A stretch of DNA of 20,060 nucleotides from a virus: positions 1-20,060 of the IMG/VR virus record IMGVR_UViG_3300033816_001191, one strand, 5' to 3'. How positions within the stretch are numbered: position 1 is the stretch's first letter; the number at the start of each line of letters is the position of its first letter. The translations under genes were made by a program, and so were the position numbers. This document shows, piece after piece, positions 2,348 to 18,711 of this stretch. Below the pieces are notes generated by a model that had not been told where the DNA came from, ran no database searches, and saw only the letters and a program-made list of their open reading frames with translations.

Positions 2348-2358
2348 GTCACTACTAC

Positions 2359-2370
2359 CCAAACAAAATG
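2359..2370 (+). promoter_or_regulatory. CA-rich SD-less start context of primase gene
   Basis: CCAAACAAAATG includes the ATG of the primase-helicase. The identical 12-mer starts the minus-strand genes at 8154 and 8733. No Shine-Dalgarno sequence is present in the 20 bp gap after the nuclease gene. This appears to be the plus-strand member of the CA-rich leader class described for the accessory operon. Confidence 0.55.
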
Positions 2371-4896
2371 CAGCCATTGACAGACCGTCGTGGCTTGGTG
2401 GATCTACGCCAAGCCCAAGAGCACCTTCGCCTCATGTTCGGTGATAGGGACTGGAGAGAGAACGAGTTCGTTTGCGTTCGCGGTATCGGCGAAAAAGGAA
2501 CCGAGCAGGAGGGAGTCTTCCGGGAGGACATCTTCGTTGAGCCAGCCAAAGAGGGCTTCGCTCCGGTGTTATCAGCAACCGAGCGGTGGGCACAGTACAA
2601 CGTGGCTACCTTCGTCGTCCCCGGCATCTTGTCCGAGCGCAAGGCAACAAGCGCCAACGTCGCACGTATGCGCTCGCTGGTGGCAGACCTCGACAACGGC
2701 AACACCGACGAGAAGATGCGGGCCATCACCGAACAGCTTGGCGAGCCTTCGCTGGTGGTGTTGTCAGGCGGGACGACCGAGGAGGGCACTCCAAAGCGGC
2801 ACGTCTGGTATCAACTCGATGCGGAGGTGCCAACCGAACAGGCGATCCGCATGCGGGACGCGCTTGCCAAGGTAAGCGGCGGGGACGCCGCCATGGGCCT
2901 TGGCGTTGACTCAAACCCGTACGGCCGCGCTCACCAACCAATCCGTCTGGCAGGCAGCGTACACGCCAAGAAAGGCACGCCAGTTCAGACCGCCATCGAG
3001 TGGAGAAGCGAGACCATTCAGAACGCTTCCGCGTTCACCGAGCGTCTGCGCTCGCTCTTACCAGATGGCGCGGTAGCACCGGAGGCGGGGCTCTTCGGGG
3101 CCAAAAGCACCAACGCGCTCCCGAAGGAGCCAGCCCATCAGCGGGACGTGTACGAGGGCGCTGCCAACGGGGAGACACGCTGGGACGCGTTCAACAGCGT
3201 TGCAGGGGCGAACCTGGGGCTTGTGCGGCGGGGGATGATAACTCTTGAGGAGGCCCGCGAGCAGACCCGCGGCTGGATGCTTCAGCGGATGCACCCAGCA
3301 TGGACGGACGCACGCTTCGCCTCGGAGTGGCAGGGGCTTGTCAATGCAGACACGCGCCGCAACGGGAAGGTTGAGGCAGCACCGGCGGCAGTGCAAGCGA
3401 CGGCCCGAGCTCTTCCGGCGTCCACGCCGGCGGAGTCGTGGTTTGAGGCATGGCAGGCGCACCGGTGGATTAAGTGGCCAAAGCCAGAGCACACCTACTT
3501 GGTTGAGGCGCTGGTCGTCAAAGGCGAACCGCATCTCTTCATCGCTGAGGGCGGCGCAGGCAAGACCGGTCTCATCGCTGACTTGGCCCTTAAGGTCGCA
3601 GCCCAACCAGAGTACGCAGGGGACTTGGACTGGTGCGGGCAGCGCATCACCAACGGGGGAACCGCGGTGCTTTTGCTTTGCGAGGACAGTCAGACCGAGA
3701 TGCACCGGCGTATCCTTGAGATTGATCACGGCGGGCTAATCACAAAGGCAGGCCGGAGGCTTGTTGTCATCCCACTCTCAGCTGTTGGCGGGGCGTTTCC
3801 GCTTGTGGAGCGCGATCCCAAGAGTGGCTCACCAATAGCCTCACCGAAGTGGGAGGCAGTCATCACCGAGCTTAAGCGGATCCCAGACCTGTGCCTTGTG
3901 GCAATCGATACCTTCAACGCGGTCTCCCACGGGGATGAGAACAACGCTCTGGCAGTTGCGGAGATGATGCGCGAAGCAGGGCGTGTGTGCGGAGAGCTCA
4001 AGGCAGCTCTCATGATCACGCACCACATCCGCAAGCCCGGCAACGAGCCGATCCGAACGCTCAAGGACATGAAGAACTCCATCCGCGGAAGCAGCGCCAT
4101 CCCGTCGTACTTCCGAATCAACTTGGGGTTCTGGCACGCGACCGATTACGAGCGCCGCATGAAGGGGATGGCTCTGGCTCCGCGGGTGGACTCTTGTTAC
4201 CGGTTCGGGGTACTCAAGGCCAACATCAGTGGGCTCATGCGCGGCGAGCGAACACTGCTTCGCGACGGCAACGGCCTGCTTAAGGACGTGACAAAGCTGG
4301 ACGTGTACAGCGCCATCAACGTGACAGAGAGGCTTGCATGGCTTGTTCTGGCGGTGCGGGAGGCGGCTGGTAATCTGCACCCGTACACGCTGGGTAACAA
4401 GAACGCAGCCAACGGGCTTTACAAGCGCCGCTCGGAACTTCCACCGGTGTTGCGCGCAGTTGGCGCAAGCGAGTTTGGACACCTCATCGAGGAGGGCTTA
4501 CAGAAGGAGCTTATCGTCTCGTGCGCGGTCAAAGGCAGCAAGGCTAAGAGCTACCTTGATGTGCCGGGCGGTCTTTTGGCTTCGGATGAGACCGGCGCCG
4601 CCATCCAAGCAGGGGCGTATTCGTCCCTGCCGGATTGGTCGGAGTATATGTTCGATCCTGAGACCGGTACCTGCGTTGGCAGGTCAGCAGCGGGAGCGTG
4701 GGGGGCTACCTTCTCGCAGCCATCCATGGCGGCACAGGGCCAGAGTGGACAGGAGCAGGAGGATCAACCGGTGCGGGAGGAGCTGGCTGAAGAGCATGAC
4801 GAGCCAGCAGTACCTGCATTCCGCTCTCAATTCGCGCGAGGGATTCGCCTTGGGCTACCGAGAGCTGAGAAACTAGCTTCTCAAGATGAAGAATAG
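2368..4896 (+). CDS. AEP primase / RepA-like helicase fusion
   Basis: 842 residues. The N-terminal ~230 resemble a RepB'-type archaeo-eukaryotic primase: a metal-binding VADLD (D107, D109), SGG (133-135) with RHVWY (144-148), and a late IRLAGSVHAKKG (192-203). A RecA-fold helicase of the RepA/AAA_25 type follows: Walker A EGGAGKT (394-400), Walker B LVAID (510-514), MITHHIRKPG (549-558) and SIRGSS (571-576). The last ~90 residues are polar, Q/E-rich and probably disordered. By family it would prime and unwind DNA at the phage origin, combining the jobs of plasmid RSF1010 RepB' and RepA in one chain. The tail overlaps a minus-strand ORF for ~190 bases, and a plus-strand terminator follows at 4982. 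Confidence 0.85.
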   Translation: MQPLTDRRGLVDLRQAQEHLRLMFGDRDWRENEFVCVRGIGEKGTEQEGVFREDIFVEPAKEGFAPVLSATERWAQYNVATFVVPGILSERKATSANVARMRSLVADLDNGNTDEKMRAITEQLGEPSLVVLSGGTTEEGTPKRHVWYQLDAEVPTEQAIRMRDALAKVSGGDAAMGLGVDSNPYGRAHQPIRLAGSVHAKKGTPVQTAIEWRSETIQNASAFTERLRSLLPDGAVAPEAGLFGAKSTNALPKEPAHQRDVYEGAANGETRWDAFNSVAGANLGLVRRGMITLEEAREQTRGWMLQRMHPAWTDARFASEWQGLVNADTRRNGKVEAAPAAVQATARALPASTPAESWFEAWQAHRWIKWPKPEHTYLVEALVVKGEPHLFIAEGGAGKTGLIADLALKVAAQPEYAGDLDWCGQRITNGGTAVLLLCEDSQTEMHRRILEIDHGGLITKAGRRLVVIPLSAVGGAFPLVERDPKSGSPIASPKWEAVITELKRIPDLCLVAIDTFNAVSHGDENNALAVAEMMREAGRVCGELKAALMITHHIRKPGNEPIRTLKDMKNSIRGSSAIPSYFRINLGFWHATDYERRMKGMALAPRVDSCYRFGVLKANISGLMRGERTLLRDGNGLLKDVTKLDVYSAINVTERLAWLVLAVREAAGNLHPYTLGNKNAANGLYKRRSELPPVLRAVGASEFGHLIEEGLQKELIVSCAVKGSKAKSYLDVPGGLLASDETGAAIQAGAYSSLPDWSEYMFDPETGTCVGRSAAGAWGATFSQPSMAAQGQSGQEQEDQPVREELAEEHDEPAVPAFRSQFARGIRLGLPRAEKLASQDEE

Positions 4897-5514: not shown

Positions 5515-5967
5515 ATGACTCTCACTTTCTTTGTTGCCGGTACACCTCGCCCACAGCCAAGGCCGCGTTTTGTTAATGGCAGAGCGGTATCCACCCTCGA
5601 TGCGAAGTCCAACGCGTGGAAGGCGGCTTTGCGTGCGTGCGCGGGCCATGTTTTGCAGCGGGCGGGGAAGACATCGGAGTCTCTTGGGCTGCGTGAGGCG
5701 ATTTCGATGGAGTTGACGTTCAGCTTCTCGACCGGTGAAGAGGGGCGGTTTGGGAAGCCGCACACGCACAAGCCGGATGCGGATAACTTGGCGAAGCTGG
5801 TGATGGACGCGCTGGTGGATGGCGGTTTGTGGGTTGGGGATGACAGCCGGGTGGCGGACTTGACGGTCAGGAAGCGGTGGTGCGCAGCCGGTGAGGAGGG
5901 CGTGAGCGTGAGCGTGTACGTTGACGCACAGGTGCAGGAGCAGGCCGCTCCGGATTGGCTGGGGTGA
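5515..5967 (+). CDS. rusA: RusA-like Holliday junction resolvase
   Basis: 150 residues, slightly longer than E. coli RusA (120). The opening FFVAGTPRPQPRPRF matches the family start, which normally reads as a beta strand followed by a P.P..R segment. The catalytic block is KPDADNLAK (D88, D90, K94), followed by a DAL near 98-100 and GDDSRV (D109, D110), then K120. These correspond to the metal-binding aspartates and the lysine of RusA. By family it cuts four-way junctions symmetrically as a dimer, resolving branched replication or recombination intermediates before packaging. No SD precedes the ATG; a palindromic operator-like site lies 14 bp upstream. It opens a second short plus-strand operon. 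Confidence 0.9.
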   Translation: MTLTFFVAGTPRPQPRPRFVNGRAVSTLDAKSNAWKAALRACAGHVLQRAGKTSESLGLREAISMELTFSFSTGEEGRFGKPHTHKPDADNLAKLVMDALVDGGLWVGDDSRVADLTVRKRWCAAGEEGVSVSVYVDAQVQEQAAPDWLG

Positions 5968-6794: not shown

Positions 6795-6868
6795 GAGAGG
6801 CCCCGAGGCAGCCGAGGACGAGGGGGTAATACAACAACCCATCCACCGCAGGCCCGCACATGATTGCC

Positions 6869-6898
6869 AGCAGAGCAGAGCAGAGCCGAGCAGAGCAG
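6869..6898. repeat. AGCAG pentamer tandem array
   Basis: Six five-base units of AGCAG, with one CCGAG variant, run uninterrupted. The array sits between two imperfect copies of a ~41-bp sequence (6812-6852 and 6901-6941). Confidence 0.7.
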
Positions 6899-7076
6899 TC
6901 CCGAGGACGCCGATGTAATACAGCAGTCTGTTGACCGCTGGGCAGAATCCAGCATAGCGTAACCGATCTCTTCTGGCGTGGTGCCAACAATGCACAATGC
7001 AACGTGGGTGGAATAACACGCCAGAAGGCCCACGGCCTGCCGAGTGGCAGTGTCCGTGGGTTTGTTCGTTTTTAGG

Positions 7077-7158
7077 GGATTAACGCAGCCAAAACCGAAA
7101 TCACCGGCAGGTTTTGACTTTCGTGAAAAGTTTTGGCCCAGCCACGAAATCGGAATGG
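7077..7158. repeat. 82-bp dispersed repeat, copy A
   Basis: Begins GGATTAA and ends GAAATCGGAATGG, with CGTGAAAAGTTTTGG in the middle. A second copy of the same length and with clear similarity lies at 8817-8898 in the same orientation. The core GTGAAAAGTTTT also occurs at 5983-5994. It may be a duplicated control region. Confidence 0.6.
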
Positions 7159-7319
7159 CTTGTACCCGGTAGCCGATCACCAGTAGCGTGCAGCCCTTCC
7201 CGCAGCGACGCGGTGGGGTGATCGCCGTCAGCGCTTATGGCGTTTGCAGGCGGTTGCCCCGAGGCGCCGCGATGGGCGGGGCATGGCGGGGACAGTAGGG
7301 GACACGGGAAGCAGGCACG

Positions 7320-7346
7320 CGTCAGCGTGCGTCAGCGTGCGTCAGC
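7320..7346. repeat. 10-bp tandem repeat
   Basis: CGTCAGCGTG occurs twice followed by a partial CGTCAGC. Short, perfect and in non-coding DNA; function unknown. Confidence 0.6.
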
Positions 7347-7396
7347 TCAGGGAGCGGCGTTGGGGAGGAGAGCGGGGCATGGTGCGGTGTTTAGGG

Positions 7397-7434
7397 CACA
7401 AAGAAGGCCGAGGCGCCACGGGGGCAGCTCGGCC
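7397..7434 (-). terminator. probable terminator of the accessory operon
   Basis: Read on the minus strand, GGCCGAG and CTCGGCC (7428-7434 and 7406-7412) form a 7-bp GC stem with a GC-rich loop, followed by TTCTTTGTG (7397-7405). It lies about 27 bp past the last minus-strand gene, as expected for the operon end. Confidence 0.5.
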
Positions 7435-7460
7435 GGAAGGGGAGGGGAGGGGAGCGAGGA

Positions 7461-7775
7461 TCAGAACGAACAGCACCCGCAACATGGTGCGTCTTCACAC
7501 CGCCCGCGGCGGTTGCGGTAGCCTCTCCAGCCAGTGGACGTGATGACTCCAAACGATACCGCATTGCCAGCGCTCCAAGCGAGTGCGTCAGCAACGCGCT
7601 CAGAAGGCGCGTCAGGGGCGGTCTGGACGCAGTCAGGGCACGTCACCCGCCAGCCGCCACGAGGGGCGCGGGAGAGGGTTCCGACACCCGCGGGGACGCG
7701 GGTAGTGCAGTTGTCGCACGCCGCTGGGTAGCGGTTGGTGCGGGAGGGGCTAGTGGTGTTGGTGGTGGTTTGCAT
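7461..7775 (-). CDS. four-cysteine zinc-ribbon-like protein
   Basis: 104 residues. CDNC (C20, C23) and CPDC (C46, C49), separated by a V.AGVGTL turn and a GGWRVT strand, form a likely zinc ribbon. Small phage proteins with this layout are common but uncharacterised. The C-terminal end (ending EDAPCCGCCSF) is less protein-like. The start is ATG 7775 in CA-rich sequence (ATGCAAACCACCACCAAC). The leader contains AAACCAAACC and no SD. Last gene of the minus-strand accessory operon, followed by a likely terminator at 7397-7434. Function unknown. Confidence 0.65.
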   Translation of the reverse strand: MQTTTNTTSPSRTNRYPAACDNCTTRVPAGVGTLSRAPRGGWRVTCPDCVQTAPDAPSERVADALAWSAGNAVSFGVITSTGWRGYRNRRGRCEDAPCCGCCSF

Positions 7776-7815
7776 ATGGTGTGTGGTTTGGTTTGAGGTT
7801 TGAGTGGGGAGGAGG

Positions 7816-8154
7816 TCAGTCGCAGATTAGGCGCATGAATGCATGAAGGTCGTCCACCTCGTCTTCGGTGGCGTTGCAGTAGCATCCCCAGTCCACCGCG
7901 CCCGCGGGCACTGTGCCGAGGCAGCTCGGGCAGTCGGTTCGGAAGTGCGCGAGGTCGAACACCGCCTGGGGAACGTCTCCCACGGTAACGTCGTTACCGT
8001 CGTTCGGGCTGAACCATGCCTCCCAGTAGGCGGTGGCGGTCTGCGGCCCGTACACGCAGAGCCAGCCGTCACGGGTAATGTGTGTCTCATAGCCTGCAGC
8101 GGTGAGCTCAGCAGCTGCGGTGTGGATGGTGCGGGGTGTTGTTTTTGTACTCAT
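7816..8154 (-). CDS. hypothetical acidic protein with Cys cluster
   Basis: 112 residues. The N-terminal half reads as an alpha-beta fold (TAAAELTAAGYETHITRDGWLC...). The C-terminal half carries C75-x2-C78 and C91-x-C93, a possible metal site, and ends acidic (ATEDEVDDLHAFM). No family recognised. The start context is CCAAACAAAATG with three CCAAA units directly upstream and no SD; the first codons are also CA-rich (AGT ACA AAA ACA ACA). It shares this start region almost exactly with the next upstream gene, although the proteins differ. It lies 40 bp before the 7461-7775 gene. Confidence 0.65.
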   Translation of the reverse strand: MSTKTTPRTIHTAAAELTAAGYETHITRDGWLCVYGPQTATAYWEAWFSPNDGNDVTVGDVPQAVFDLAHFRTDCPSCLGTVPAGAVDWGCYCNATEDEVDDLHAFMRLICD

Positions 8155-8186
8155 TTTGTTTGGTTTGGTTTGGTTTGTTTTGTTTG
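8155..8186 (-). promoter_or_regulatory. CCAAA-repeat leader, SD-less
   Basis: On the minus strand the bases directly before ATG 8154 read AAACCAAACCAAACCAAAC then AAA. This gives three CCAAA units that run up to the start codon with no purine-rich ribosome site. Together with the stop-side bases to 8199 it forms the whole 45-bp gap to the upstream gene. Confidence 0.75.
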
Positions 8187-8199
8187 CAAAAAGGTGCGG

Positions 8200-8733
8200 T
8201 TACCTGACCTCAGGGAGCTTGCTTTGGACGTAGGAGCAAAGGTCATCGATTTCCTCCTCTAAACCTTTGGCATGGGCTTTTCTGGGATCGCCGCTCAACG
8301 TCTCACCAAGCGGGTCCTCACCGGTCTCAACAACGTATAGCGAGTACAGTGCGTTCCGAAGCAGTTGGTAGTGGCAGCTCATTGTTGCCAGTTGCCATGC
8401 CAGTTCCTCAGAGTCTGCGTCCTCTTTGCCAAACTCAGAAATCACGTCCCAGCTGCAGTCGCTGTCAACGGCAACAAACTCAACGGTCTCAACTCCACCG
8501 ACTCGCTTGAGGTTCGCGCAGTAAGCGTCTTTGCGCCACCCGCCTTTGTAAGACTCGTCCTCGGAAAACACCCAGTCGCCTGCTTCGTCGTTCGTCCAGT
8601 CGAAGTCGCCTTCAGGGGTGTAGACGAACAGTGCCTCCCACGAACACGCAAACGGACGCGGATTGCGTTCAATGGCGCGCATGGCTTGGTTTACTTTTGC
8701 GCGGAGCTGGTTTGTGTTGGTTTGTGTACTCAT
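8200..8733 (-). CDS. hypothetical acidic protein
   Basis: 177 residues, acidic, with many aromatic residues in the middle (FACSWEALFVYTPEGDFDW) and a helical C-terminal part (EELAWQLATMSCHYQLLRNALYSLY). No signal peptide or membrane segment. I do not recognise a family. The start is ATG 8733, with CCAAACAAAATG as its context and further CCAAA units upstream. Codons 3-8 (ACA CAA ACC AAC ACA AAC) continue the CA-rich run into the gene. It is the first gene after the terminator at 9150-9179, so it may head its own transcript. Confidence 0.65.
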   Translation of the reverse strand: MSTQTNTNQLRAKVNQAMRAIERNPRPFACSWEALFVYTPEGDFDWTNDEAGDWVFSEDESYKGGWRKDAYCANLKRVGGVETVEFVAVDSDCSWDVISEFGKEDADSEELAWQLATMSCHYQLLRNALYSLYVVETGEDPLGETLSGDPRKAHAKGLEEEIDDLCSYVQSKLPEVR

Positions 8734-8761
8734 TTTGTTTGGTTTGGTTTGTTTGGTTTGC
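8734..8761 (-). promoter_or_regulatory. CCAAA-repeat leader, SD-less
   Basis: The minus strand reads CAAACCAAACAAACCAAACC then AAACAAA directly before ATG 8733. No SD. Near-identical to the leader of the next gene downstream (8155-8186), including the shared 12-mer that contains the ATG. Confidence 0.75.
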
Positions 8762-8816
8762 TGACTGACTGAAAGGGAAATCGGTTGGGGAGGAGGGGAA
8801 CTTTAGCGGAAAAACC

Positions 8817-8898
8817 GGATTAAACGGGGCGAAATGGAAATCGTGGCGAGAAGTTGGAATTCGTGAAAAAGTTTGGGCGAGGCAGGAAATCGGAATGG
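8817..8898. repeat. 82-bp dispersed repeat, copy B
   Basis: Matches 7077-7158 over its full length, with conserved ends GGATTAA and GAAATCGGAATGG and a central CGTGAAAAAGTTTGGG. It lies about 85 bp upstream of the minus-strand gene starting at 8733, where a promoter or operator would be expected. Confidence 0.6.
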
Positions 8899-8910
8899 GG
8901 TCTCATATGC

Positions 8911-9021
8911 GGGCGCGTCATGCGTGGGCGCGTCATGCGCGCTTGGGTGTGTGTGCGTGTGTGTGTGTGTGTGGGTGGGTGCGCTTGGGTGTGTGTGGGT
9001 TCGGGTGTGTGTTTGTGTTTC
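8911..9021. repeat. short duplications and GT-rich tract
   Basis: GGGCGCGTCATGCG is repeated with a 15-bp period (8911-8924, 8926-8939). GCGCTTGGGTGTGTGTG occurs at 8939-8955 and 8981-8997. Between and after them is an alternating GT tract with GGG interruptions. Reading frames here give only Thr/His or Cys/Val repeats and are not genes. With copy B of the dispersed repeat, this accounts for most of the 8762-9149 gap. Confidence 0.7.
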
Positions 9022-9039
9022 GAGTATAGCGTTTAAACG
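9020..9039 (-). promoter_or_regulatory. weak promoter/operator candidate
   Basis: The palindrome CGTTTAAACG (9030-9039) is followed on the minus strand by CTATACTCG, whose TATACT is a five-of-six -10 match. It sits after the terminator at 9150-9179 and before the gene starting at 8733, so it could restart leftward transcription. No good -35 box is visible, hence low confidence. Confidence 0.25.
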
Positions 9040-9149
9040 AGCGGAAAGGGCTCTTCCAAGCGTCACGGGAAGCGGGGAAGGTGGCGATAGCGGAAAGGGG
9101 AGAAGGGTGGCTTCTTGGGGATTTTAGGGGTGGGGAGCGGGGAGGCACG

Positions 9150-9179
9150 AAAAAAGCCGAACCCGTTAGGGCTCGGCTT
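9150..9179 (-). terminator. intrinsic terminator within accessory block
   Basis: On the minus strand AAGCCGAGCCC, loop TAAC, GGGTTCGGCTT form an 11-bp stem with one G-U pair, followed by a run of six T (9155-9150). It ends the transcript of genes 11238 to 9203 and divides the accessory block into two units. Confidence 0.8.
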
Positions 9180-9204
9180 GGGTTGGGTTGGGTTGGGTTG
9201 GGTT
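9180..9204. repeat. five tandem GGGTT units, G-quadruplex motif
   Basis: Plus strand: five perfect GGGTT units. The minus-strand transcript reads CCAAC pentamers. The array begins at the stop codon of the 9203-9397 gene and abuts the terminator stem. Five G3 runs with 2-base spacers meet the usual G-quadruplex pattern on the plus (template) strand. Confidence 0.8.
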
Positions 9205-9397
9205 AGTCTTGCGTTGCAATGCTCTCGCATGTCTCCCTGAGCTCAGCGGTTAACTCACAGAGGGATGCGCCGCTACTGTGTGCGTCCTGAATGGCGTTGA
9301 CGGCGCAACATGCTCCGTTGGGGTCCAGCGTGAGGAGCCAGCCGTATACGCTGGCTAACTCAGGGTTAGCGTCGAGAATGTCAGGTAGGGTTGTCAT
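9203..9397 (-). CDS. small hypothetical protein
   Basis: 64 residues, acidic and mostly helical (PDILDANPELASVYGWLLTL), with a CC pair near residue 30 and two more cysteines. No family recognised. The start ATG 9397 comes three bases after the stop of the upstream gene (TAAACCATG), implying translational coupling. It is the last gene before the terminator at 9150-9179, with the GGGTT array (CCAAC in the transcript) filling the gap. Confidence 0.55.
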   Translation of the reverse strand: MTTLPDILDANPELASVYGWLLTLDPNGACCAVNAIQDAHSSGASLCELTAELRETCESIATQD

Positions 9398-9400
9398 GGT

Positions 9401-9610
9401 TTAGTGTCGGTACAATCTACCGTCGGTCCCGACACGGTGGGCGAGTAGGGGTGAGGGGGGTGGGGTTGTTGAGACGGACCAGTGGAGGTCAGTTGCGGCA
9501 AACTCGCGGGTTAGCGCGCGCATGATGTCGTGCTCATTGTCGGCGGAGACAGTGCCAACGTAGGACCGAGACCCGTTTGGCGCGAGGGTGTAAACGTAAA
9601 AGGTGCGCAT
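9401..9610 (-). CDS. small hypothetical protein
   Basis: 69 residues from ATG 9610; the open frame continues upstream but that part overlaps the GP88-like gene antisense to its frame. The start of the protein (MRTFYVYTLAPNGSRSYVGT) reads as two beta strands, followed by a helix (EHDIMRALTREFAA) and a Pro-rich end. Function unknown. It follows the GP88-like gene by 10 bases and precedes the next gene by three, so the three genes are probably co-translated. Confidence 0.55.
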   Translation of the reverse strand: MRTFYVYTLAPNGSRSYVGTVSADNEHDIMRALTREFAATDLHWSVSTTPPPSPLLAHRVGTDGRLYRH

Positions 9611-9620
9611 TGTCAGTGTG

Positions 9621-10346
9621 TCAGTTGAGGTCAACAACGAAGCCGCTCTGGTCTCGCTTGGCACTGCCTTTGGCGCGCAACCCGACAATGTACCCAGAGC
9701 GTCCAGCGCGCGCGCGGCGGTCGAGAAACCGAAGGTCCGTAGCGTCTCCGTTGAGCACTGGCCTATGCCAGTAAGTTGATGGGAGCGAGTCGCGAAACAC
9801 TACAGCGACATTCCCGCCCGCCGAGAGCACCTGATGACACTCTGTTTCGTTTGCGGCCGAATCGCGCGAGAATACAACGGTATAGTTTTGAGGGTGAAGG
9901 CCTTTGGCGTTGTCTAAGGCTTTTTTGACGGATTTGGAATAGTCATAAAAGGGGACGTCTAAAAAGCATTCCATCAAGGTTTTACCTTGAGAAGGTACGG
10001 TAAGGCGATGAAATGCAAGGTCGCTGGTGCCATTTAACCTGATGCAAGGTTGCAAGCCAAGGCGTTTAGCTTTGGTGATCAGGGCCTTGCAATCTTCAAA
10101 CAGGGTCTGCATGAATGCGTCACGGTTGCGGAAAAACAGTCTGGTCTTGGCAATGCGTGCCTTTTGGACGCTATTGAAAGCGCCTCTTCCGGAGGTATTT
10201 AAACAGCCTGTTTTGCACGCTGCGGCCCACGGGCAAACGTTGCCAGCACCTGAGAGGGTGTGGGGGGCAAGGTACAAGATACCAGTTAGATATCCAACTT
10301 GCTCTCCTTTTTGGGTCTTGGCTGAGGAGTGGCCTAGCAGTTTCAT
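9621..10346 (-). CDS. GP88/DUF7227-like phage protein
   Basis: 241 residues from ATG 10346, chosen because the frame upstream is only CA-rich leader. Features I associate with the phage GP88/DUF7227 group: YLAPHTLSGAGNVCP with a cysteine cluster (C38, C44, C48), ACKTGCLNTSGRG, RLFFRNRDAF (near 69-78), RLNGTSDL (103-110), and a C-terminal RFLDRR...IVGLRAKGSA...SGFVVDL. The biochemical role is unknown; the three cysteines and conserved polar motifs suggest a metal- or cluster-binding enzyme, but that is inference. It is the largest and best conserved gene of the accessory operon. The leader carries three CCAAA units and no SD. Confidence 0.75.
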   Translation of the reverse strand: MKLLGHSSAKTQKGEQVGYLTGILYLAPHTLSGAGNVCPWAAACKTGCLNTSGRGAFNSVQKARIAKTRLFFRNRDAFMQTLFEDCKALITKAKRLGLQPCIRLNGTSDLAFHRLTVPSQGKTLMECFLDVPFYDYSKSVKKALDNAKGLHPQNYTVVFSRDSAANETECHQVLSAGGNVAVVFRDSLPSTYWHRPVLNGDATDLRFLDRRARAGRSGYIVGLRAKGSAKRDQSGFVVDLN

Positions 10347-10387
10347 TTTGGTTTGGTTTGGTTTGTAGTTTGTTGGGGGTGAGTGGT
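10347..10387 (-). promoter_or_regulatory. CCAAA leader plus junction sequence
   Basis: Reading the minus strand from the previous stop codon: ACCACTCACCCCCAACAAAC, then TAC and AAACCAAACCAAACCAAA before ATG 10346. The first half recurs at the next two gene junctions upstream (10598-10631, 10866-10898). No SD. Confidence 0.75.
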
Positions 10388-10597
10388 TTAACGCACGGTA
10401 CCGCAGTGGCAATCAGCCATCCCACACAAAGCGCGCTTGATGCGCTTGTGTAACGCCAAAGCGTTGAGTTGGGAGCGGTTGCGGTTGTGTGGTTGGGTTG
10501 ATTTGGCGCGGTAAGCGGCGCTAACTATCTCGTCCCAATCGAGTTGGGATTTGATGCGGATTGATGTCTGGTGGAATGAGTTGGATAGAGTTTGCAT
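10388..10597 (-). CDS. small basic hypothetical protein
   Basis: 69 residues from ATG 10597, preceded by the CA-rich junction leader. Basic and mostly helical (WDEIVSAAYRAKSTQPHNRNRS, then LNALALHKRIKRALCG), ending with three cysteines in CGMADCHCG. Could bind nucleic acid, but no motif proves it. Its end (GTGCGTTAAACCACTC) matches the ends of neighbouring genes at the DNA level. Confidence 0.5.
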   Translation of the reverse strand: MQTLSNSFHQTSIRIKSQLDWDEIVSAAYRAKSTQPHNRNRSQLNALALHKRIKRALCGMADCHCGTVR

Positions 10598-10631
10598 AAT
10601 GTTTTGAGTTTGTTGGGGTTGGGCGAGTGGT
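10598..10631 (-). promoter_or_regulatory. CA-rich junction leader
   Basis: Minus strand after the TAA of the upstream gene: ACCACTCGCCCAACCCCAAC then AAACTCAAAACATT before ATG 10597. Shares CCCCAACAAACTCAA with 10866-10898 and lacks an SD. Confidence 0.7.
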
Positions 10632-10865
10632 TTAGCGCAGAGCATAGCAAATAGCGTTGCTACGCGTTGTACCTAGTCCGGAAAAATCACAAAACACTCT
10701 CTCTCCGGTACCTACGCGGATTGCTGTGGCGGAAAATGCCACCTTGTGTCCATAGCAATGCTTGGCGTCCACCGTGTAACGGATTGAGTTCGGGAGTATT
10801 ACGCATTCTCCGAATGCCCAATGGTTTATCTTCCAAGTGCGCTTGCGTTTGGCTTTTGTTGTCAT
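10632..10865 (-). CDS. small basic hypothetical protein
   Basis: 77 residues, lysine/arginine-rich at the start (TTKAKRKRTWKINHW), then a probable beta-rich region (SIRYTVDAKHCYGHKVAFSATAIRVGTGERVFC) and a short helix. Four cysteines, no clear metal motif. Could be an RNA- or DNA-binding protein; no family recognised. The start lies in CA-rich sequence (ATGACAACAAAAGCC) without SD. Confidence 0.5.
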   Translation of the reverse strand: MTTKAKRKRTWKINHWAFGECVILPNSIRYTVDAKHCYGHKVAFSATAIRVGTGERVFCDFSGLGTTRSNAICYALR

Positions 10866-10898
10866 AAGGCGTTGAGTTTGTTGGGGTTGGGTTGGGTG
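10866..10898 (-). promoter_or_regulatory. CCAAC leader, SD-less
   Basis: Minus strand after the TAA of the membrane-protein gene: CACCCAACCCAACCCCAAC then AAACTCAACGCCTT before ATG 10865. Three CCAAC units plus the shared CCCCAACAAACTC block. Confidence 0.7.
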
Positions 10899-11054
10899 TT
10901 ATCGCATGGCTACCTTGAGCGTTACGGCGTAAGTGGTTAGGCACAAGGCACCAACGAGACAAGCCTCCACGGTTGAGAGGGGTAAAAACGCCAGTGCAAG
11001 GATGTCGGCGGTGGTGAGTAGGTTTAAGGCTAGTAGGAAGTGGCTCTCTTTCAT
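10899..11054 (-). CDS. small membrane protein
   Basis: 51 residues from ATG 11054. Two hydrophobic segments, about residues 6-26 (FLLALNLLTTADILALAFL) and 31-47 (ACLVGALCLTTYAVTL), with short charged ends (KES; KVAMR). Probably inserts as a hairpin in the inner membrane. Role unknown; superinfection exclusion or a lysis-related role is possible but unsupported. The gap to the upstream gene is 13 bp, TAAACCACCCAAACCC running into the ATG, again CA-rich and SD-less. Confidence 0.55.
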   Translation of the reverse strand: MKESHFLLALNLLTTADILALAFLPLSTVEACLVGALCLTTYAVTLKVAMR

Positions 11055-11067
11055 GGGTTTGGGTGGT

Positions 11068-11238
11068 TTAAGCTTCAATGATGTCAAAAGTGATGTCTGC
11101 TCTATCCGTTTCGGATTCAAGGCCTTGCATAAGCGCTAGGGCATCAGCATAGGGGAGTGGATCTGAGTAGATTTGGGGCTCATGGCAGGGGACACCTACA
11201 GTTTTTCCGGTGACTATGTACAAGGGGTTGGTTTTCAT
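11068..11238 (-). CDS. small hypothetical acidic protein
   Basis: 56 residues from ATG 11238. The protein opens with a beta-like segment (NPLYIVTGKTVG), then a helix (YADALALMQGLESETD) and a final strand (ADITFDIIE). No family recognised. The leader reads AAACCAACACAAACCA directly before the ATG, with no SD. It is the first gene of the minus-strand operon, so a leftward promoter should lie in the 11239-11396 control region. Confidence 0.55.
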   Translation of the reverse strand: MKTNPLYIVTGKTVGVPCHEPQIYSDPLPYADALALMQGLESETDRADITFDIIEA

Positions 11239-11396
11239 TGGTTTGTGTTGGTTTGATTGCGTTGGCTCATTGCCAACGTGGTGCAAGGTTGGCGCAAAAG
11301 GGGCAGTGCGTCAACAAGGATTGTGCGAAAAGTTTGCGCGCTGGGTGGGGAGGGTGCGTTGCTTTGAGCCCTATATCAGCCGTTCTTTAGGGCTGC
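11239..11396. promoter_or_regulatory. divergent control region, accessory versus late genes
   Basis: Gap between the leftward accessory operon and the rightward packaging genes. It contains words related to the 5078-5190 cluster: GTGCAAGGTTGGCGCAAA (11281-11298) and TTGTGCGAAAAGTTTGCGCG (11321-11340). GAGCCCTATATCAG (11366-11379) resembles GAGCCCTTATATAGAG (5288-5303). AGCCCTA (11367-11373) and TAGGGCT (11388-11394) can pair just before the ATG at 11397. No clear sigma-70 promoter is visible. Confidence 0.45.
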
Positions 11397-11898: not shown

Positions 11899-13344
11899 GT
11901 GAAAGAACTCAGCCCAGAAGAAAAAGCCGAACTCGTCCTCTGCCTTGAGGAGCTCCAGCGCCGTAAGCGCGAGCGCCGTTTACTCGGTTACTACCCAGAC
12001 GCTGGCCCCCTGCGACGGGAGCTTTACAAGAAGCACACCGCCTTCTTCGAGGCGGGGGCGCGGTACAAGGAGCGCCTGATGATGGCAGCCAACCGCGTCG
12101 GCAAGACCGAAGGCATCGGCGGCTTCGAGATGGCGCTACACCTCACGGGCCGGTACCCCTCATGGTGGCGCGGTCGCCGGTTCGACCGCCCCATCTCAGC
12201 GTGGGCGGCAGGGGACACCGGTAAGACCTCACGGGACATCTTGCAGACGAAGCTGCTGGGCCCTGCGGGCGCCCACGGCACCGGTCTCATCCCGAAGGAG
12301 GACATCCTGAGGACGAGCGCGAAGGCAGGCATCGCTGACGCGGTAGAGATCATCATCGTCCGGCACGCCTCCGGCGGCGAGTCGCGGTTAACGCTCAAGA
12401 GCTACGACCAGCGTCGTGAGAGCTTCCAAGGGACGGAGCAGGACATCATCTGGCTGGACGAGGAGCCGCCGCTGGACATCTACACAGAGTCGCTGCTGCG
12501 GACGATGACGAACGACGGGATGGTGATGCTGACGTTCACGCCGCTCTTGGGGATGTCGGAGACGGTGATGGCGTTCTTGAAGGACGGGGAAGTCGCGGAG
12601 CGAGCGGAGGGGACGAAGTACGTGGGGATGGCGACGTGGGACGACGTGCCGCACTTGAGCACGAAGCAGAAGGAGGATTTGTGGTCGAGCATCCCGCCCT
12701 TCCAGAGGGATGCGCGCTCGAAGGGCGTGCCGCAGTTGGGGGCAGGGGCGATTTATCCGGTACCGGAGAGTGAGCTTGTGGTGCCGGACTTTGAGGTGCC
12801 GGTGCACTGGCCGCGGGTATTTGGGATGGATGTGGGGTGGAACCGGACAGCGGCGGTGTTTGGTGCGCTCGACCAGCAGAGCGACACGTTGTATCTGTAC
12901 TCGGAGCACTACCGCGGGCAGGCGGAGCCGGCCATCCACGCGGAGGCGATTAACGCGCGTGGGCGCGGCATCCCCGGGGTGATTGATCCGGCGTCCCGTG
13001 GGAGAACGCAGGTGGACGGGCAGCAGTTATTTGTGCGGTACCGGCAGATGGGGCTGGACTTGACGGTGGCGAACAACGCGGTGGAGACGGGGATTTACGA
13101 TGTGTGGCAGCGGATGTCGACGGGACGCCTGAAGGTGTTTAAGAGCATGACGAACTGGGTGGCGGAGTTCCGGTTGTACCGGCGGGACGACAAAGGCAGA
13201 GTCGTTAAGGAGAACGACCACTTGATGGATGCGACGCGGTACTTGGTGGTGAGCGGGCTGAATCGTGCGGCCTTGAGTTTGAAGAAGCGGATGCAGAAGA
13301 TGATTGAAGTGATGCCGGTGCTGAACTTCTTCTCAAAGAAGTAG
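11899..13344 (+). CDS. terL: terminase large subunit
   Basis: 481 residues, close to P22 gp2 (499). ATPase: Walker A AANRVGKT (63-70), Walker B IIWLDE (183-188) and the coupling motif TFTPLLG (212-218). C-terminal RNase H-like nuclease: GMDVGWN (D311), VIDPAS (D363) and ENDHLMDATRY (D440, D444). By family it cuts concatemeric DNA and drives it into the prohead through the portal. The gene starts at GTG 11899; the next in-frame Met is residue 61, which would remove the Walker motif region. No SD precedes the GTG, but a GC-rich hairpin does. It lies between the small terminase and the portal gene. Confidence 0.93.
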   Translation: MKELSPEEKAELVLCLEELQRRKRERRLLGYYPDAGPLRRELYKKHTAFFEAGARYKERLMMAANRVGKTEGIGGFEMALHLTGRYPSWWRGRRFDRPISAWAAGDTGKTSRDILQTKLLGPAGAHGTGLIPKEDILRTSAKAGIADAVEIIIVRHASGGESRLTLKSYDQRRESFQGTEQDIIWLDEEPPLDIYTESLLRTMTNDGMVMLTFTPLLGMSETVMAFLKDGEVAERAEGTKYVGMATWDDVPHLSTKQKEDLWSSIPPFQRDARSKGVPQLGAGAIYPVPESELVVPDFEVPVHWPRVFGMDVGWNRTAAVFGALDQQSDTLYLYSEHYRGQAEPAIHAEAINARGRGIPGVIDPASRGRTQVDGQQLFVRYRQMGLDLTVANNAVETGIYDVWQRMSTGRLKVFKSMTNWVAEFRLYRRDDKGRVVKENDHLMDATRYLVVSGLNRAALSLKKRMQKMIEVMPVLNFFSKK

Positions 13345-13436: not shown

Positions 13437-15473
13437 ATGAAGAACGACCCGGTGAAAGTGCATTCGGAGGCTACTGCCGAGTTTGACCGTATCCAAGAGG
13501 TGCTCCGCAACGAGCGTTTGCAGTGCCTGCAAGACCGCCGGTTTTGTTCTATTCCGGGCGCACAATGGGAGGGGCCGCTTTCTGAGCAGTACGAGAATCG
13601 GCCACGGTTTGAAGTGAACAAGACGCAGCTGGCGGTGATGCGGATTATCAACGACTACCGCTCGAACCGTATCACGGTGGAGTATGTGCCGCGCGAGAAG
13701 GAGTACGAGAGCTTGGCGGAGACGTGCAACGGTCTGTTTCGGGCGACGGAAGTGGATTCAAGCGCTGAGGAAGCGTACGACAACGCGTTTGAGGAGGCGG
13801 TGACGGGCGGGTTTGGGGCGTTGCGTTTGCGCAACGAGTACGAGGACGAGTACGACGGGGAATCGGACGAGCAGAAGATTTGCATTGAGCCCATTTACGA
13901 TGCGGACTCATCGGTGTACTTCGACTTGAACGCGAAGCGGCAAGACAAAGCGGACGCGAAGCGGTGCTTTGTGATTACGGCGATGACCAAGGAGGACTAT
14001 GAGGCGGAGTGGGGGGACGATCCGGCGACATGGCCGAAGGAGATTACGCGCACCCAGTTCGACTGGCAGACGCCGGATGTGGTGTATGTGGCGGAGTACT
14101 ACCGTGTGGAGGAGAAGACGGACTACATGGTGACGTTTGAGGGGATTACGGGCGATGAGGAGAAGGAGCTTTTGTCGGTGCTTAAGGAGGGGAAGCTGGA
14201 GGAGTTGACGGCGCTTGGGTACAAGGAAGTTAAGCGCAAGAAGATTAAGCAGAAGAAGGTGCACAAGTGGATTATGTCGGGTGGCAAGGTGCTTGAGGAC
14301 TGCGGTTACATTGCGGGGCAGTGCATCCCGATTGTGCCGGTGTACGGCAAGCGCTGGTTTGTGGACAACGTGGAGCGGTGCATGGGACACGTTCGGCTGG
14401 CGAAAGACATGCAGCGCCTAAAGAACATGCAGCTCTCCAAGCTCGCAGAGATTTCGGCGCTCTCGTCGATGGAGAAGCCTATTTTCATGCCTGAGCAGGT
14501 GGCGGGGCATCAGGTGATGTGGGCGGAAGACAACCTCAGGAACTATCCGTACCTGCTGGTGAACGGGATAACGGACGCGAACGGCGCGGTGCAACCGGCG
14601 CCTCCTGTGGCGTACACGAAATCCCCGCAGGTCCCACCGGCGATGGCGGCGCTTTTGGGGGTGACAGACCTTGATATGCAGCAGCTCTTGGGCAGCCAAG
14701 GCAACGGGGACAAGATGGTCTCGCACGTTACCTCAAAGGCGGTGGACTTGGTGATGCAGCGCCTGGACATGCAGTCGTACATCTACGTCTCGAACATGGC
14801 CAAGGCGATTAAGCGCGTGGGCGAGATTTGGTTATCCATGGCCAAAGACGTGTTCGTGGAAGATAAGCGCAAGATGAAGGTTGTTACCGCCAACGGCGAA
14901 CAAGACGAAGTTGAGCTCATGACACCGGTGATTGACCCTGAGTCAGGCGAGCTTGAGTACGAGAACGACCTCTCGGAAGCCCAGTTCGATGTCGCGGTAG
15001 ACGTGGGGCCATCGTCAACGACCAAGCGTCAGGCGACGGTGCAGGCGCTGCTCTCAATGATGGCGGTGACACAAGACCCAGAGACGATGAACGTGCTCTC
15101 GTCGATGGCGATGATGAACATGGAAGGCGAAGGGCTTGGGGACGTGCGCAACTACTTCCGCAAGAAGCTGCTTCGCATGGGGGCGGTTAAACCCACTGAG
15201 CAAGAGGCCCAGGAGCTCCTTGCAGAGCAGCAGAACGCCCAGCCGGACGCACAGACGCAGTACTTCGCTGCGGAGGCGCAAAGGGCAAATGCGCTCGCGC
15301 AAAAGGCACAAGCTGACACGGTGCTTGTCATGGCCAAGGCAGAAGAGACGCGGGCTAAGACTGAGGAAACGATTGCGAAGGCCGGCCAGATTGATCAGGA
15401 CAAGGCGATGCAGTTGGCTGAGAAGATTGAGAAGGACGTGCAGAAACTTGTAGCGCCGCCTGCAACATTTTAG
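13437..15473 (+). CDS. P22-like portal protein
   Basis: 678 residues (P22 gp1: 725). The strongest match to the P22-type portal family is RPRFEVNKTQLAVMRIINDY (55-74) leading into RSNRITVEYVP (75-85). The middle carries the family's extended wing and stem; the C-terminal ~100 residues are a long Ala/Gln/Lys-rich coiled coil (AEAQRANALAQKAQADTVL and on), like the barrel helix of P22 portal. As a dodecamer it forms the DNA entry and exit channel at one vertex and docks the terminase. ATG 13437 has no convincing SD (GATGAGACC). It follows TerL in the expected order. Confidence 0.92.
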   Translation: MKNDPVKVHSEATAEFDRIQEVLRNERLQCLQDRRFCSIPGAQWEGPLSEQYENRPRFEVNKTQLAVMRIINDYRSNRITVEYVPREKEYESLAETCNGLFRATEVDSSAEEAYDNAFEEAVTGGFGALRLRNEYEDEYDGESDEQKICIEPIYDADSSVYFDLNAKRQDKADAKRCFVITAMTKEDYEAEWGDDPATWPKEITRTQFDWQTPDVVYVAEYYRVEEKTDYMVTFEGITGDEEKELLSVLKEGKLEELTALGYKEVKRKKIKQKKVHKWIMSGGKVLEDCGYIAGQCIPIVPVYGKRWFVDNVERCMGHVRLAKDMQRLKNMQLSKLAEISALSSMEKPIFMPEQVAGHQVMWAEDNLRNYPYLLVNGITDANGAVQPAPPVAYTKSPQVPPAMAALLGVTDLDMQQLLGSQGNGDKMVSHVTSKAVDLVMQRLDMQSYIYVSNMAKAIKRVGEIWLSMAKDVFVEDKRKMKVVTANGEQDEVELMTPVIDPESGELEYENDLSEAQFDVAVDVGPSSTTKRQATVQALLSMMAVTQDPETMNVLSSMAMMNMEGEGLGDVRNYFRKKLLRMGAVKPTEQEAQELLAEQQNAQPDAQTQYFAAEAQRANALAQKAQADTVLVMAKAEETRAKTEETIAKAGQIDQDKAMQLAEKIEKDVQKLVAPPATF

Positions 15474-15499: not shown

Positions 15500-16372
15500 A
15501 TGGAGAACACAAACACGGCAGTAGATGCTGACGTGACCTTGGATGAGGACGAAGTTCCCGCAACTGAGGCTGTGGCTGAAGACACCGGTAAGACGGTGGA
15601 AGCAGAGCCAGCTGAGAGCGGTAAAACGGAAGCCTCGGAAGAGATTGATGTCAGCATCGGGGATTCGCCAACCCAGAAAGAGGACGCAGAGAAGGCACCT
15701 GAATGGGTGCGTGAAGTGCGTAAAACCAATCGGGAACTGCACCGCAAGAATCGGGAGCTAGAGGAGAAGCTGAAGGCAATATCGGCAACTGAGAACAATC
15801 CGGTTGACCCTGGGCCAAAGCCGACACTGGAAGGCGCTGATTACGACACGGAGAAGTACGAGGCCAAGCTGGCTGAGTGGTTTGATCGGAAACGAAAAGC
15901 CGCTGAAATCCAGTCCAAGGCCGAGGAAGAGCAGAAAGCCCAACAGGCTGAGTGGCACAAGAAGCTTGAGAACTACGCGAAGTCCAAGACTGAGCTGAAG
16001 GTTCAAGACTACGAAGATGCCGAAGCCTCGGTGCAAGAGGTGCTCAACACCACGCAGCAGGGTATCCTGTTGCAAGGTTCAGAGAACTCTGCGCTATTGG
16101 TGTACGCGCTGGGCAAGAACCCGAAAAAGGCGAAAGAACTTGCTGAGATAAAAGACCCGGTAAGATTCGCATTCGCGGTCGCAAAGCTCGAAACGCAACT
16201 CAAGGTGACAAAGAAAACTGCTCCTCCTCCAGAGAAGACCCCACCGTCCGGCGGGGCAAGGTCAACCGGAGGATCCGACGAAGTGTTGGACAACCTACGC
16301 GCAAAGGCCGAGCGCACCGGTGACTACACCCAAGTTCTGGCCTACAAACGTCAATTGCAGTCAAAAAAGTAA
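15500..16372 (+). CDS. scaffolding protein
   Basis: 290 residues (P22 gp8: 303). The N-terminal ~75 are highly acidic (DADVTLDEDEVPATEAVAED). A charged coiled coil follows (VRKTNRELHRKNRELEEKLK) with more helical sequence to ~190. The C-terminus is basic (LRAKAERTGDYTQVLAYKRQ, then LQSKK), like the helix-loop-helix by which P22 scaffold binds coat. It would direct prohead assembly and leave before DNA is packaged. Assignment rests on composition and position between portal and coat, since scaffolds diverge quickly. The ATG follows CTAACTAAGAAAAA with no SD; it ends 3 bp before the coat gene. Confidence 0.85.
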   Translation: MENTNTAVDADVTLDEDEVPATEAVAEDTGKTVEAEPAESGKTEASEEIDVSIGDSPTQKEDAEKAPEWVREVRKTNRELHRKNRELEEKLKAISATENNPVDPGPKPTLEGADYDTEKYEAKLAEWFDRKRKAAEIQSKAEEEQKAQQAEWHKKLENYAKSKTELKVQDYEDAEASVQEVLNTTQQGILLQGSENSALLVYALGKNPKKAKELAEIKDPVRFAFAVAKLETQLKVTKKTAPPPEKTPPSGGARSTGGSDEVLDNLRAKAERTGDYTQVLAYKRQLQSKK

Positions 16373-18234: not shown

Positions 18235-18711
18235 ATGGGATACACAAAACGCCAGTTCGTTGAGGCCGCTTTCGAGGAGTTGGGGCTGGCGTCGTATGTG
18301 TTCGACTTGACGCCCGACGAACTTCAGTCCGCGGTGCGCCGGTTGGATGCTATGGTCGCCCAGTGGTACGCGAAAGCCATCCAGATTAGCTACCCGCTGA
18401 CGAACTCGCCTGAGAACAGTGATCTGGACACCGAGACGAACGTTCCTATCACCGCCAACGAGGCCATCATCCTGAATCTGGCGATGCGGATTGCCCCTCA
18501 GTACGGCAAAGCGCCGTCTTTGGACACCAAGTTGGGGGCGATTTCAGGCTACCAAACGCTCCTTATGCAGAGCGCGAATGTCCTGCAGCAGCAGTATCCT
18601 TCGGCGATGCCCTCGGGAGCTGGCAACAAAGACGTGGATTGGCCGTTCCTGCCGGCGCCATCCATCGCTCCCATCGAGCAGGAACCAAACGGTCAACTTC
18701 AGTTCCGCTAA
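18235..18711 (+). CDS. P22 gp4-like head completion / tail accessory factor
   Basis: 158 residues (P22 gp4: 166). The family outline is visible: a start with TKRQFVEAAFEELGL, then LTPDELQSAVRRLDAMVAQW (26-45), TANEAIILNLAMRIAPQYGK (72-91), and a C-terminal part ending in Pro-rich PAPSIAPIEQEP. In P22, gp4 binds the portal ring after packaging, closes the head and provides the platform for gp10. Its position two genes after the coat, close to the P22 order, supports the call. Start ATG 18235 is three bases after the preceding stop and has no SD. Confidence 0.85.
   Translation: MGYTKRQFVEAAFEELGLASYVFDLTPDELQSAVRRLDAMVAQWYAKAIQISYPLTNSPENSDLDTETNVPITANEAIILNLAMRIAPQYGKAPSLDTKLGAISGYQTLLMQSANVLQQQYPSAMPSGAGNKDVDWPFLPAPSIAPIEQEPNGQLQFR

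Follow-up and report, generated by a model that had tools for sequence, protein, structure and literature searches.

The window analysed here, the whole stretch of 20,060 nucleotides, is part of a P22-like phage contig and carries ten minus-strand ORFs at 7461-11238, all of them without a Shine-Dalgarno (SD) site. Because gene calling from codon use overlooked small accessory genes, ORF conservation and array-anchored tests were used instead. For most of the island ORFs the changes relative to homologues concentrate at codon position 3, indicating that these are real genes. The share of changes at this position is given with each gene below.

2349..2367, plus strand: C/A-rich leader with CCAAACAAAATG at its end, preceding the AAA_25 replication gene 2368-4896; kept in the relative G007
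7461..7775, minus strand: accessory gene, 104 aa, family F6; 16 relatives, position-3 share 0.47
7776..7815, minus strand: C/A-rich leader CTCAAACCTCAAACCAAACCACACACCAT of ATG 7775
7816..8154, minus strand: accessory gene, 112 aa, no family; two relatives only, position-3 share 0.43, weak
8155..8194, minus strand: leader CAAACAAAACAAACCAAACCAAACCAAACAAA of ATG 8154
8200..8733, minus strand: accessory gene, 177 aa, for which the codon-position comparison had no usable relative
8734..8773, minus strand: leader CAGTCAGTCAGCAAACCAAACAAACCAAACCAAACAAA of ATG 8733
9154..9179, minus strand: intrinsic terminator closing the gene run from 11238 to 9203
9203..9397, minus strand: accessory gene, 64 aa, with a short, weak C/A leader ACACTAAACC; one relative, position-3 share 0.54
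9401..9610, minus strand: accessory gene, about 69 aa, with a leader of only weak C/A richness; 28 informative relatives, position-3 share 0.52 (tested as 9401-9688)
9621..10346, minus strand: GP88 family gene (PF17338), 241 aa; Pfam E 1e-38, position-3 share 0.62
10347..10387, minus strand: leader CCCCCAACAAACTACAAACCAAACCAAACCAAA of ATG 10346
10388..10597, minus strand: accessory gene, 69 aa, F7, the conserved neighbour upstream of the GP88 slot; position-3 share 0.60
10598..10637, minus strand: leader CAACCCCAACAAACTCAAAACATT of the 10597 start; direct repeat of the 10866-10905 leader (repeat family D3)
10632..10865, minus strand: accessory gene, 77 aa, F15; cleanly missing from the relative L004
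10866..10905, minus strand: leader CCCAACCCAACCCCAACAAACTCAACGCCTT of ATG 10865
10899..11054, minus strand: accessory gene, 51 aa, F3, with leader AAACCACCCAAACCC; position-3 share 0.53
11068..11238, minus strand: accessory gene, 56 aa, F12; position-3 share 0.56
11239..11260, minus strand: leader GCAATCAAACCAACACAAACCA of ATG 11238, with a hairpin immediately upstream

The F6 gene shows a weak match to PHROG 2656/5664 at its C-terminus (E 6.8e-7). A viral scan returned no relatives of 7816-8154; 8200-8733 had only two short weak matches. Neither an Rfam search nor a sigma-70 promoter scan across the island gave a match, and a tRNA scan of longer relatives found none.

The CA-rich stretches pointed out in a preliminary description of this DNA are indeed the leaders of the minus-strand ATGs 8154, 8733, 10346, 10865 and 11238, and a sixth such leader serves the minus-strand ATG 7775. 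Those of 10597 and 11054 are weaker, and 9397 and 9610 have almost none. As had been described, a purine-rich ribosome site is missing: none of the ten window leaders (0/10) has a GGAGG-like SD 5-12 nt before the start. The eight C/A-led starts carry 19 CCAAM pentamers (CCAAA or CCAAC), compared with 6.9+-2.2 in shuffled leaders, and 0 of 5000 shuffles reached 19. Leaders reach a pentamer density of 47.5/kb, whereas the coding parts of the same genes have 7.1/kb and further non-coding stretches of the minus strand 3.0-8.5/kb. Allowing up to one mismatch, CCAAACCAAA gave 16 matches where 1.5 were expected, and the exact pattern of array plus ATG occurred twice in the window and in none of 100 shuffles. 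The string CCAAACAAAATG is present exactly three times, at 8152-8163 and 8731-8742 on the minus strand and at 2359-2370 on the plus strand. The reported continuation of the CA bias past the start was also found, codons 2-9 being 76% C+A versus 55% over the whole coding parts. One array does not precede a start: (CCCAA)5 at 9180-9202 on the minus strand is flanked by a stop codon and the terminator, and (CCCAA)n in this position recurs in relatives.

The C/A leader class recurs in 33 gene families from the islands of 41 contigs; the phages concerned are uncultured, mostly of freshwater type, and make up one family. As suspected from the window, accessory genes stand apart by their leaders in this phage and throughout its clade, where they have C+A of 0.81 and 2.24 CCAAM per 40 nt (0.81 when shuffled); the values are 0.56 and 0.19 for early genes and 0.58 and 0.12 for late genes. 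Taking one leader per family, CCAAM counts were 51 versus 25.9+-4.3 in shuffles, which shows order beyond base composition, and the leaders have a periodicity of 5 nt (z=6.4). Rotations of CCAAA occurred 222 times, compared with 42 for CACAA, a pentamer of equal composition. Moreover, 31 of 42 arrays lie 0-14 nt ahead of an ATG opening an ORF of 40 codons or more (14.6% at random positions), and C/A-led ORFs amount to 36% on the strand opposite TerL versus 3% on the TerL strand. The CCAAA word itself is not tied to a particular gene: GP88 homologues of the clade mostly carry other C/A-rich leaders, and the leaders of one family drift freely inside C/A-rich sequence.

The trait is confined to close relatives with a TerL identity of about 80% or more. 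The C/A-led ORF class was absent at TerL identities below 70%, as well as from the SD-using named relatives EBPR podovirus 1 and Chlorobiaceae phage CV-1-33. Across IMG/VR we found at least 120 CCAAA-array stretches before ATG, compared with 57 arrays before GTA and 104 permuted CACAA arrays before ATG. C/A arrays thus precede starts in many unrelated, mostly SD-poor phages, and CCAAA is not proven to be special outside the clade. A TerL search of GTDB genomes for the host gave identities of 53-68% in scattered phyla and pointed to no host. An array before ATG was not general in the sampled Bacteroidota (2/198, control 4) and was seen in 0/151 cases in the Pelomonas family, and the true host may lie outside both.

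The preliminary description regarded the lack of SD sites as a hallmark of the operon and contrasted it with SD-led early genes. The first point did not hold, since late structural genes are also without SD (8% versus 13% by chance). SD loss thus extends over the whole phage, and what distinguishes the accessory class is the C/A leader alone. Of the second point, strong sites before the left-hand starts 173, 505, 1002 and ~1356 stood up in the window, but over the clade early genes show only a slight excess (31% versus 19% by chance). Clade accessory gene calls had SD sites in 15% versus 3% in C/A-rich shuffles, of which a part are likely miscalled starts. Since late genes are SD-less and have no strong C/A leaders, translation without SD does not depend on the array in this phage. 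The predicted folding at starts is -1.0 kcal/mol for accessory genes, -6.2 for late and -6.3 for early genes, and an A at -3 is found in 62% of accessory genes and 42% of late genes.

Comparison with relatives gave a new result: homology breaks at leaders and start codons. It had been proposed that related phages might keep the same leaders while coding parts diverge, and this was strikingly the case. The upstream flank is shared without the coding part by 34 family pairs. Behind one and the same upstream gene and leader lies GP88 in this phage, an ArdA anti-restriction gene (PF07275, E 2.7e-21) in some of the relatives and, in a further one, a clamp-like gene (PHROG 947). The 10347..10387 leader is the fixed upstream half of this slot, homology ending at 10347 or 10356-10357. 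Likewise, the 8734..8773 block heads different genes in L106 and L122, where homology begins at 8737 and 8734, respectively. L122 has a hybrid leader that is of the 8733 type in its 5' half and of the 7775 type in its 3' half. The relative without the gene 10632-10865, L004, is short of 223 nt, with an overlap of 44 nt at the two repeated leaders.

Gene gain and loss follow the same boundaries. Of the junctions, 59/123 fall in the leader/start zone, compared with 14.8+-3.5 expected under uniform placement and 22.9+-4.2 when placed in non-coding sequence only; as the contigs are related, the 123 junctions cannot be counted as independent. The gain/loss events comprise 22 distinct combinations of insert and downstream gene. 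In 48 of the 59 start-zone cases the insert is mostly one ORF. Direct-repeat overlap at junctions has a median of 21 nt in the start zone and is about absent elsewhere. Junctions lay only in start zones in 29 cases and only in stop zones in 5. In short spacers, however, a leader directly follows the previous stop, so that junctions at starts and at stops are hard to tell apart: family pairs with a common downstream flank (36) are about as frequent as those with a common upstream flank (32). Nearly all accessory genes share this kind of leader, which would allow the downstream gene to be replaced, inserted or lost at the leader/ATG junction.

The closest precedent are the Start-Associated Sequences (SAS) of Cluster K mycobacteriophages. 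SAS/ESAS are repeated sequences before the starts of many unrelated small phage genes, shared by related phages; SAS have been suspected of a role in translation and suggested as recombination homology (PMC3203893). Both systems have a shared sequence immediately upstream of starts in many families, here 33. However, SAS has a constant sequence of 13 nt, GGGATAGGAGCCC, that contains an SD-like core and is in some cases accompanied by inverted repeats (PMC3203893), while the leaders described here are C/A pentamer arrays of variable length, without SD and apparently without a hairpin. The SAS consensus GGGATAGGAGCCC had 0 matches in the window with up to two mismatches, and no ESAS-type 17-bp inverted repeat pair was found at leaders in a search limited to inverted repeats of 18 nt or longer; a hairpin does lie before the 11238 leader. 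C and A signals with similar biases on both sides of the start are reported for genes without SD in Chlorobi, Bacteroidetes and other groups (PMC5397173), and non-SD starts of Bacteroidetes, Chlorobi and Cyanobacteria show a Kozak-like A at -3 (PMC5397173, PMC6847099). The leaders resemble the Bacteroidetes/Chlorobi type in the lack of SD, weak structure, A at -3 and matching flanking bias, but elsewhere the class consists of genome-wide position biases and not of a tandem pentamer array in one island on one strand. In enteric bacteria, ACA/CA-rich enhancers such as yifK and gltI raise initiation, and ACAA repeats were reported to function without SD (PMC3879156). These enhancers are likewise C/A-rich, unstructured and upstream of starts; however, they act alongside SD and are GcvB sRNA targets, and here there is evidence of neither SD nor sRNA. 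Finally, as in phage moron and anti-defence islands, the genes are small, interchangeable and replaced singly, and include in relatives the known counter-defence gene ArdA. In contrast to other moron islands, genes are exchanged here at a boundary marked by a shared, recognisable leader repeat that runs up to the ATG.

Taken together, the leaders are probably both SD-independent translation leaders and the fixed upstream boundary of gene slots in a hypervariable island. That they promote translation or drive recombination we infer, as we do that homology between leaders assists exchange and is not merely kept by selection. C/A repeats in the mRNA would be unable to fold or to pair with the anti-SD, so that the AUG, usually with A at -3, would be presented on open RNA, and the C/A bias of the first codons would extend the open stretch. 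The 30S subunit may then load through accessibility and A/C-rich single-strand binding (e.g. by ribosomal protein S1) and not through SD pairing, and a gene arriving at the leader/ATG junction would be immediately translatable.

A purely compositional origin, in which the minus strand is merely C/A-rich, seems hardly credible. On the minus strand, a mild C/A richness (0.65) is seen in the non-coding DNA of 8774-9180, but the pentamer density of leaders far exceeds that elsewhere on the strand, and both the excess over shuffles with one leader per family and the preference for CCAAA over CACAA rotations reveal order beyond composition. Post-transcriptional control of the accessory genes through Hfq or Hfq/Crc, raised in the preliminary description, is very improbable as well. 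There is a general likeness to known targets in the A-rich sequence close to starts, but runs of at least four ARN triplets occur in 0% of leaders versus 6% of shuffles, the Hfq motif AANAANAA is at chance level (0.19 versus 0.17), and a period of 5 does not fit ARN binding, which has a 3-nt register.

Two further explanations are unlikely, though less so. The leaders might copy the start context of a host in which C/A-rich non-SD leaders are the general rule, as suggested by the low SD use across the whole phage, by the lack of the trait in the two SD-using relatives and by the similar signals in Chlorobi and Bacteroidetes (PMC5397173). However, the phage's own late genes do without such leaders, and the array is not general in Bacteroidota or the Pelomonas family, although the true host may be neither. 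Alternatively, the arrays may mainly be recombination homologies (linkers) driving accessory exchange, with a secondary effect on translation. The crossovers inside arrays in L122 and L004, the repeat overlap confined to start-zone junctions and the excess of start-only over stop-only junctions fit such linkers, as do the arrays before terminators, away from starts; since the latter serve no start codon, they also count against a role of the array specific to starts. On the other hand, with its own C/A leader on every gene, overlap is expected under selection alone; missing structure, A at -3 and the C/A bias of codons 2-8 fit translation and are unneeded for recombination; and leader drift within families weakens the homology. 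It is conceivable, at a tentative level, that the leaders are dual-use landing sites combining SD-free ribosome loading with homology for capturing and swapping counter-defence genes. If so, any gene recombined at an array would be expressed at once.

Leaders that are SD-independent and also mark slot boundaries have consequences for the study of these phages. Gene finders that rely on SD scores would overlook such genes or place them wrongly. In uncultured phages poor in SD, the C/A pentamer leaders offer a sequence handle for accessory genes, among which there are probably counter-defence genes. With exchange taking place where a universal leader meets the start codon, a route is suggested by which swapped genes may be kept translatable.

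All ten small minus-strand genes between 7461 and 11238 lack an SD site, and C/A-rich leaders precede eight of them, being strong in six. The pentamer CCAAM, which covers CCAAA and CCAAC, reaches 47.5 per kb in the leaders of the window, compared with 7.1 in the coding parts of the same genes and 3.0-8.5 in other non-coding minus-strand DNA. In the eight C/A-rich leaders 19 pentamers were seen, versus 6.9±2.2 after shuffling. The SD-less minus-strand operon with CCAAA/CCAAC leaders, as proposed in the preliminary description, is borne out, and the three exact CCAAACAAAATG sites it had reported were found again at their positions. Codon-position-3 bias against relatives indicates that most of the accessory ORFs are genuine genes, with 8200-8733 and 7816-8154 weakly tested.

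The window, a viral record from IMG/VR with a length of 20,060 bases, encodes a P22-like head set, and replication functions lie on its left side:

2368-4896, AAA_25 replication protein (left side)
5515-5967, RusA (left side)
11899-13344, TerL
13437-15473, portal
15500-16372, scaffold-like protein, slightly under its Pfam cut-off
16376-17695, coat
18235-18711, tail factor

TerL is present at 95-100% identity in more than 40 viral contigs and at 71-80% in others. No close TerL was found among GTDB genomes, where the best match reached 68% and the matches came from scattered phyla. Judging by the sample numbers of the IMG records, this phage and its relatives are probably mostly freshwater phages.

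Across the clade, leaders on the accessory strand have a C+A content of 0.81 and carry 2.24 CCAAM per 40 nt, compared with 0.81 after shuffling. The corresponding values are 0.56 and 0.19 for early genes and 0.58 and 0.12 for late genes. Moreover, the accessory leaders are almost unfoldable (mean -1.0 versus about -6 kcal/mol) and show a periodicity of 5 (z=6.4, one leader per family). It had been suggested that these genes form a class of their own, separate from SD-led early genes. The C/A leader does set them apart, while the lack of SD sites does not: SD-like words are below chance in late genes (8% versus 13%) and no more than slightly above it in early genes (31% versus 19%), so that SD absence is phage-wide and the C/A leader alone marks the accessory class. 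The strong SD sites of the early genes 505-1005 and 1002-1358 are not independent observations, since these adjoining genes have repeated segments in common (94% over 36 nt and 84% over 32 nt). Targeting by Hfq, also put forward earlier, is argued against by ARN runs and AANAANAA, neither of which is enriched in the leaders.

The C/A-leader trait is limited to the strand opposite TerL, where 36% of the ORFs are C/A-led versus 3% on the other strand, and to close relatives. It is found at 27% among relatives with 76-80% TerL identity, a value that comes from two contigs only (L044 and L045), at 8% for 71-75% identity, and at zero among relatives below 70%.

Comparison with relatives shows the accessory leaders to be boundaries of gene exchange. 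Homology between window and relatives breaks at 10347 or 10356-10357 for the start at 10346, at 8734 and 8737 for the start at 8733, and at 10857-10863 for the start at 10865. The gene starting at 10346, GP88, is the cargo behind a common upstream gene and leader in the window and in two related contigs, L005 and L029. Behind that same upstream gene and leader, L007, L010 and L106 carry genes of family F2, which contains ArdA according to the Pfam match of the family representative, and L122 carries a clamp-like gene. An ArdA anti-restriction gene lies in the accessory island of relatives at L112:15127-15651 (PF07275, E 2.7e-21); the ArdA family is present in 16 contigs, and its leaders are strongly C/A-rich, with a family mean of 4.1 pentamers. 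The gene 10632-10865 is precisely absent from L004, and the two repeated leaders overlap by 44 nt. In L122 we found a hybrid leader, in which the 8733 type is joined to the 7775 type.

Of the 123 clean gain/loss junctions counted across 41 islands, 59 lie in the leader/start zone, where 14.8±3.5 would be expected under a uniform distribution and 22.9±4.2 within non-coding DNA. The 59 junctions span 22 distinct combinations of insert and downstream gene. Junctions confined to start zones number 29, those confined to stop zones 5. All these counts are taken from kindred contigs and do not represent independent events.

These findings are most simply explained by a leader that is unstructured and independent of SD pairing, that would serve almost every accessory gene and would be held constant while the cargo behind it is replaced. 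This agrees with published features of genes without SD, which show C and A signals, with a matching bias before and after the start that works against folding (PMC5397173), and an A at -3 (PMC6847099), and with the increase of initiation by ACA/CA elements (PMC3879156). The arrays may also actively promote recombination; however, overlap at the junctions is also expected where selection merely retains one leader per gene.

Several other elements were observed in this part of the genome. A (CCCAA)5 array at 9180-9202 (-) lies between a stop codon and the intrinsic terminator 9154-9179 rather than upstream of a start; its plus strand is a (GGGTT)n G-quadruplex-like run, and similar array-plus-hairpin arrangements occur in L006, L008, L017, L041 and L074. 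The non-coding block 8806-8895 is 76-80% conserved in at least a dozen relatives despite differing flanking genes, and may act as a promoter or regulatory element for the left accessory run. It has TTCGTGAAAA(A)GTTTTGG in common with 7118-7160 and 5982. A long low-complexity (TG)n/(CA)n stretch at 8940-9020 lies in the gap separating the two accessory gene runs, and the 666 nt of 6795-7460, without a clear gene, hold low-complexity GAGCAGAGCAGAG-type repeats as well as CGTCAGCGTG repeats.

The nearest known kind to the CCAAA leaders are the Start-Associated Sequences of Cluster K mycobacteriophages (PMC3203893), likewise start-linked repeats upstream of unrelated phage genes, for which recombination has been suggested. 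However, their sequence is unlike that of the C/A leaders and was not found in the window. Among the matches listed, similar C/A arrays lie upstream of starts in many unrelated viral contigs, where a permuted pentamer is also common before starts. Hence, the phenomenon may extend beyond this clade, and composition may matter more than the exact word.
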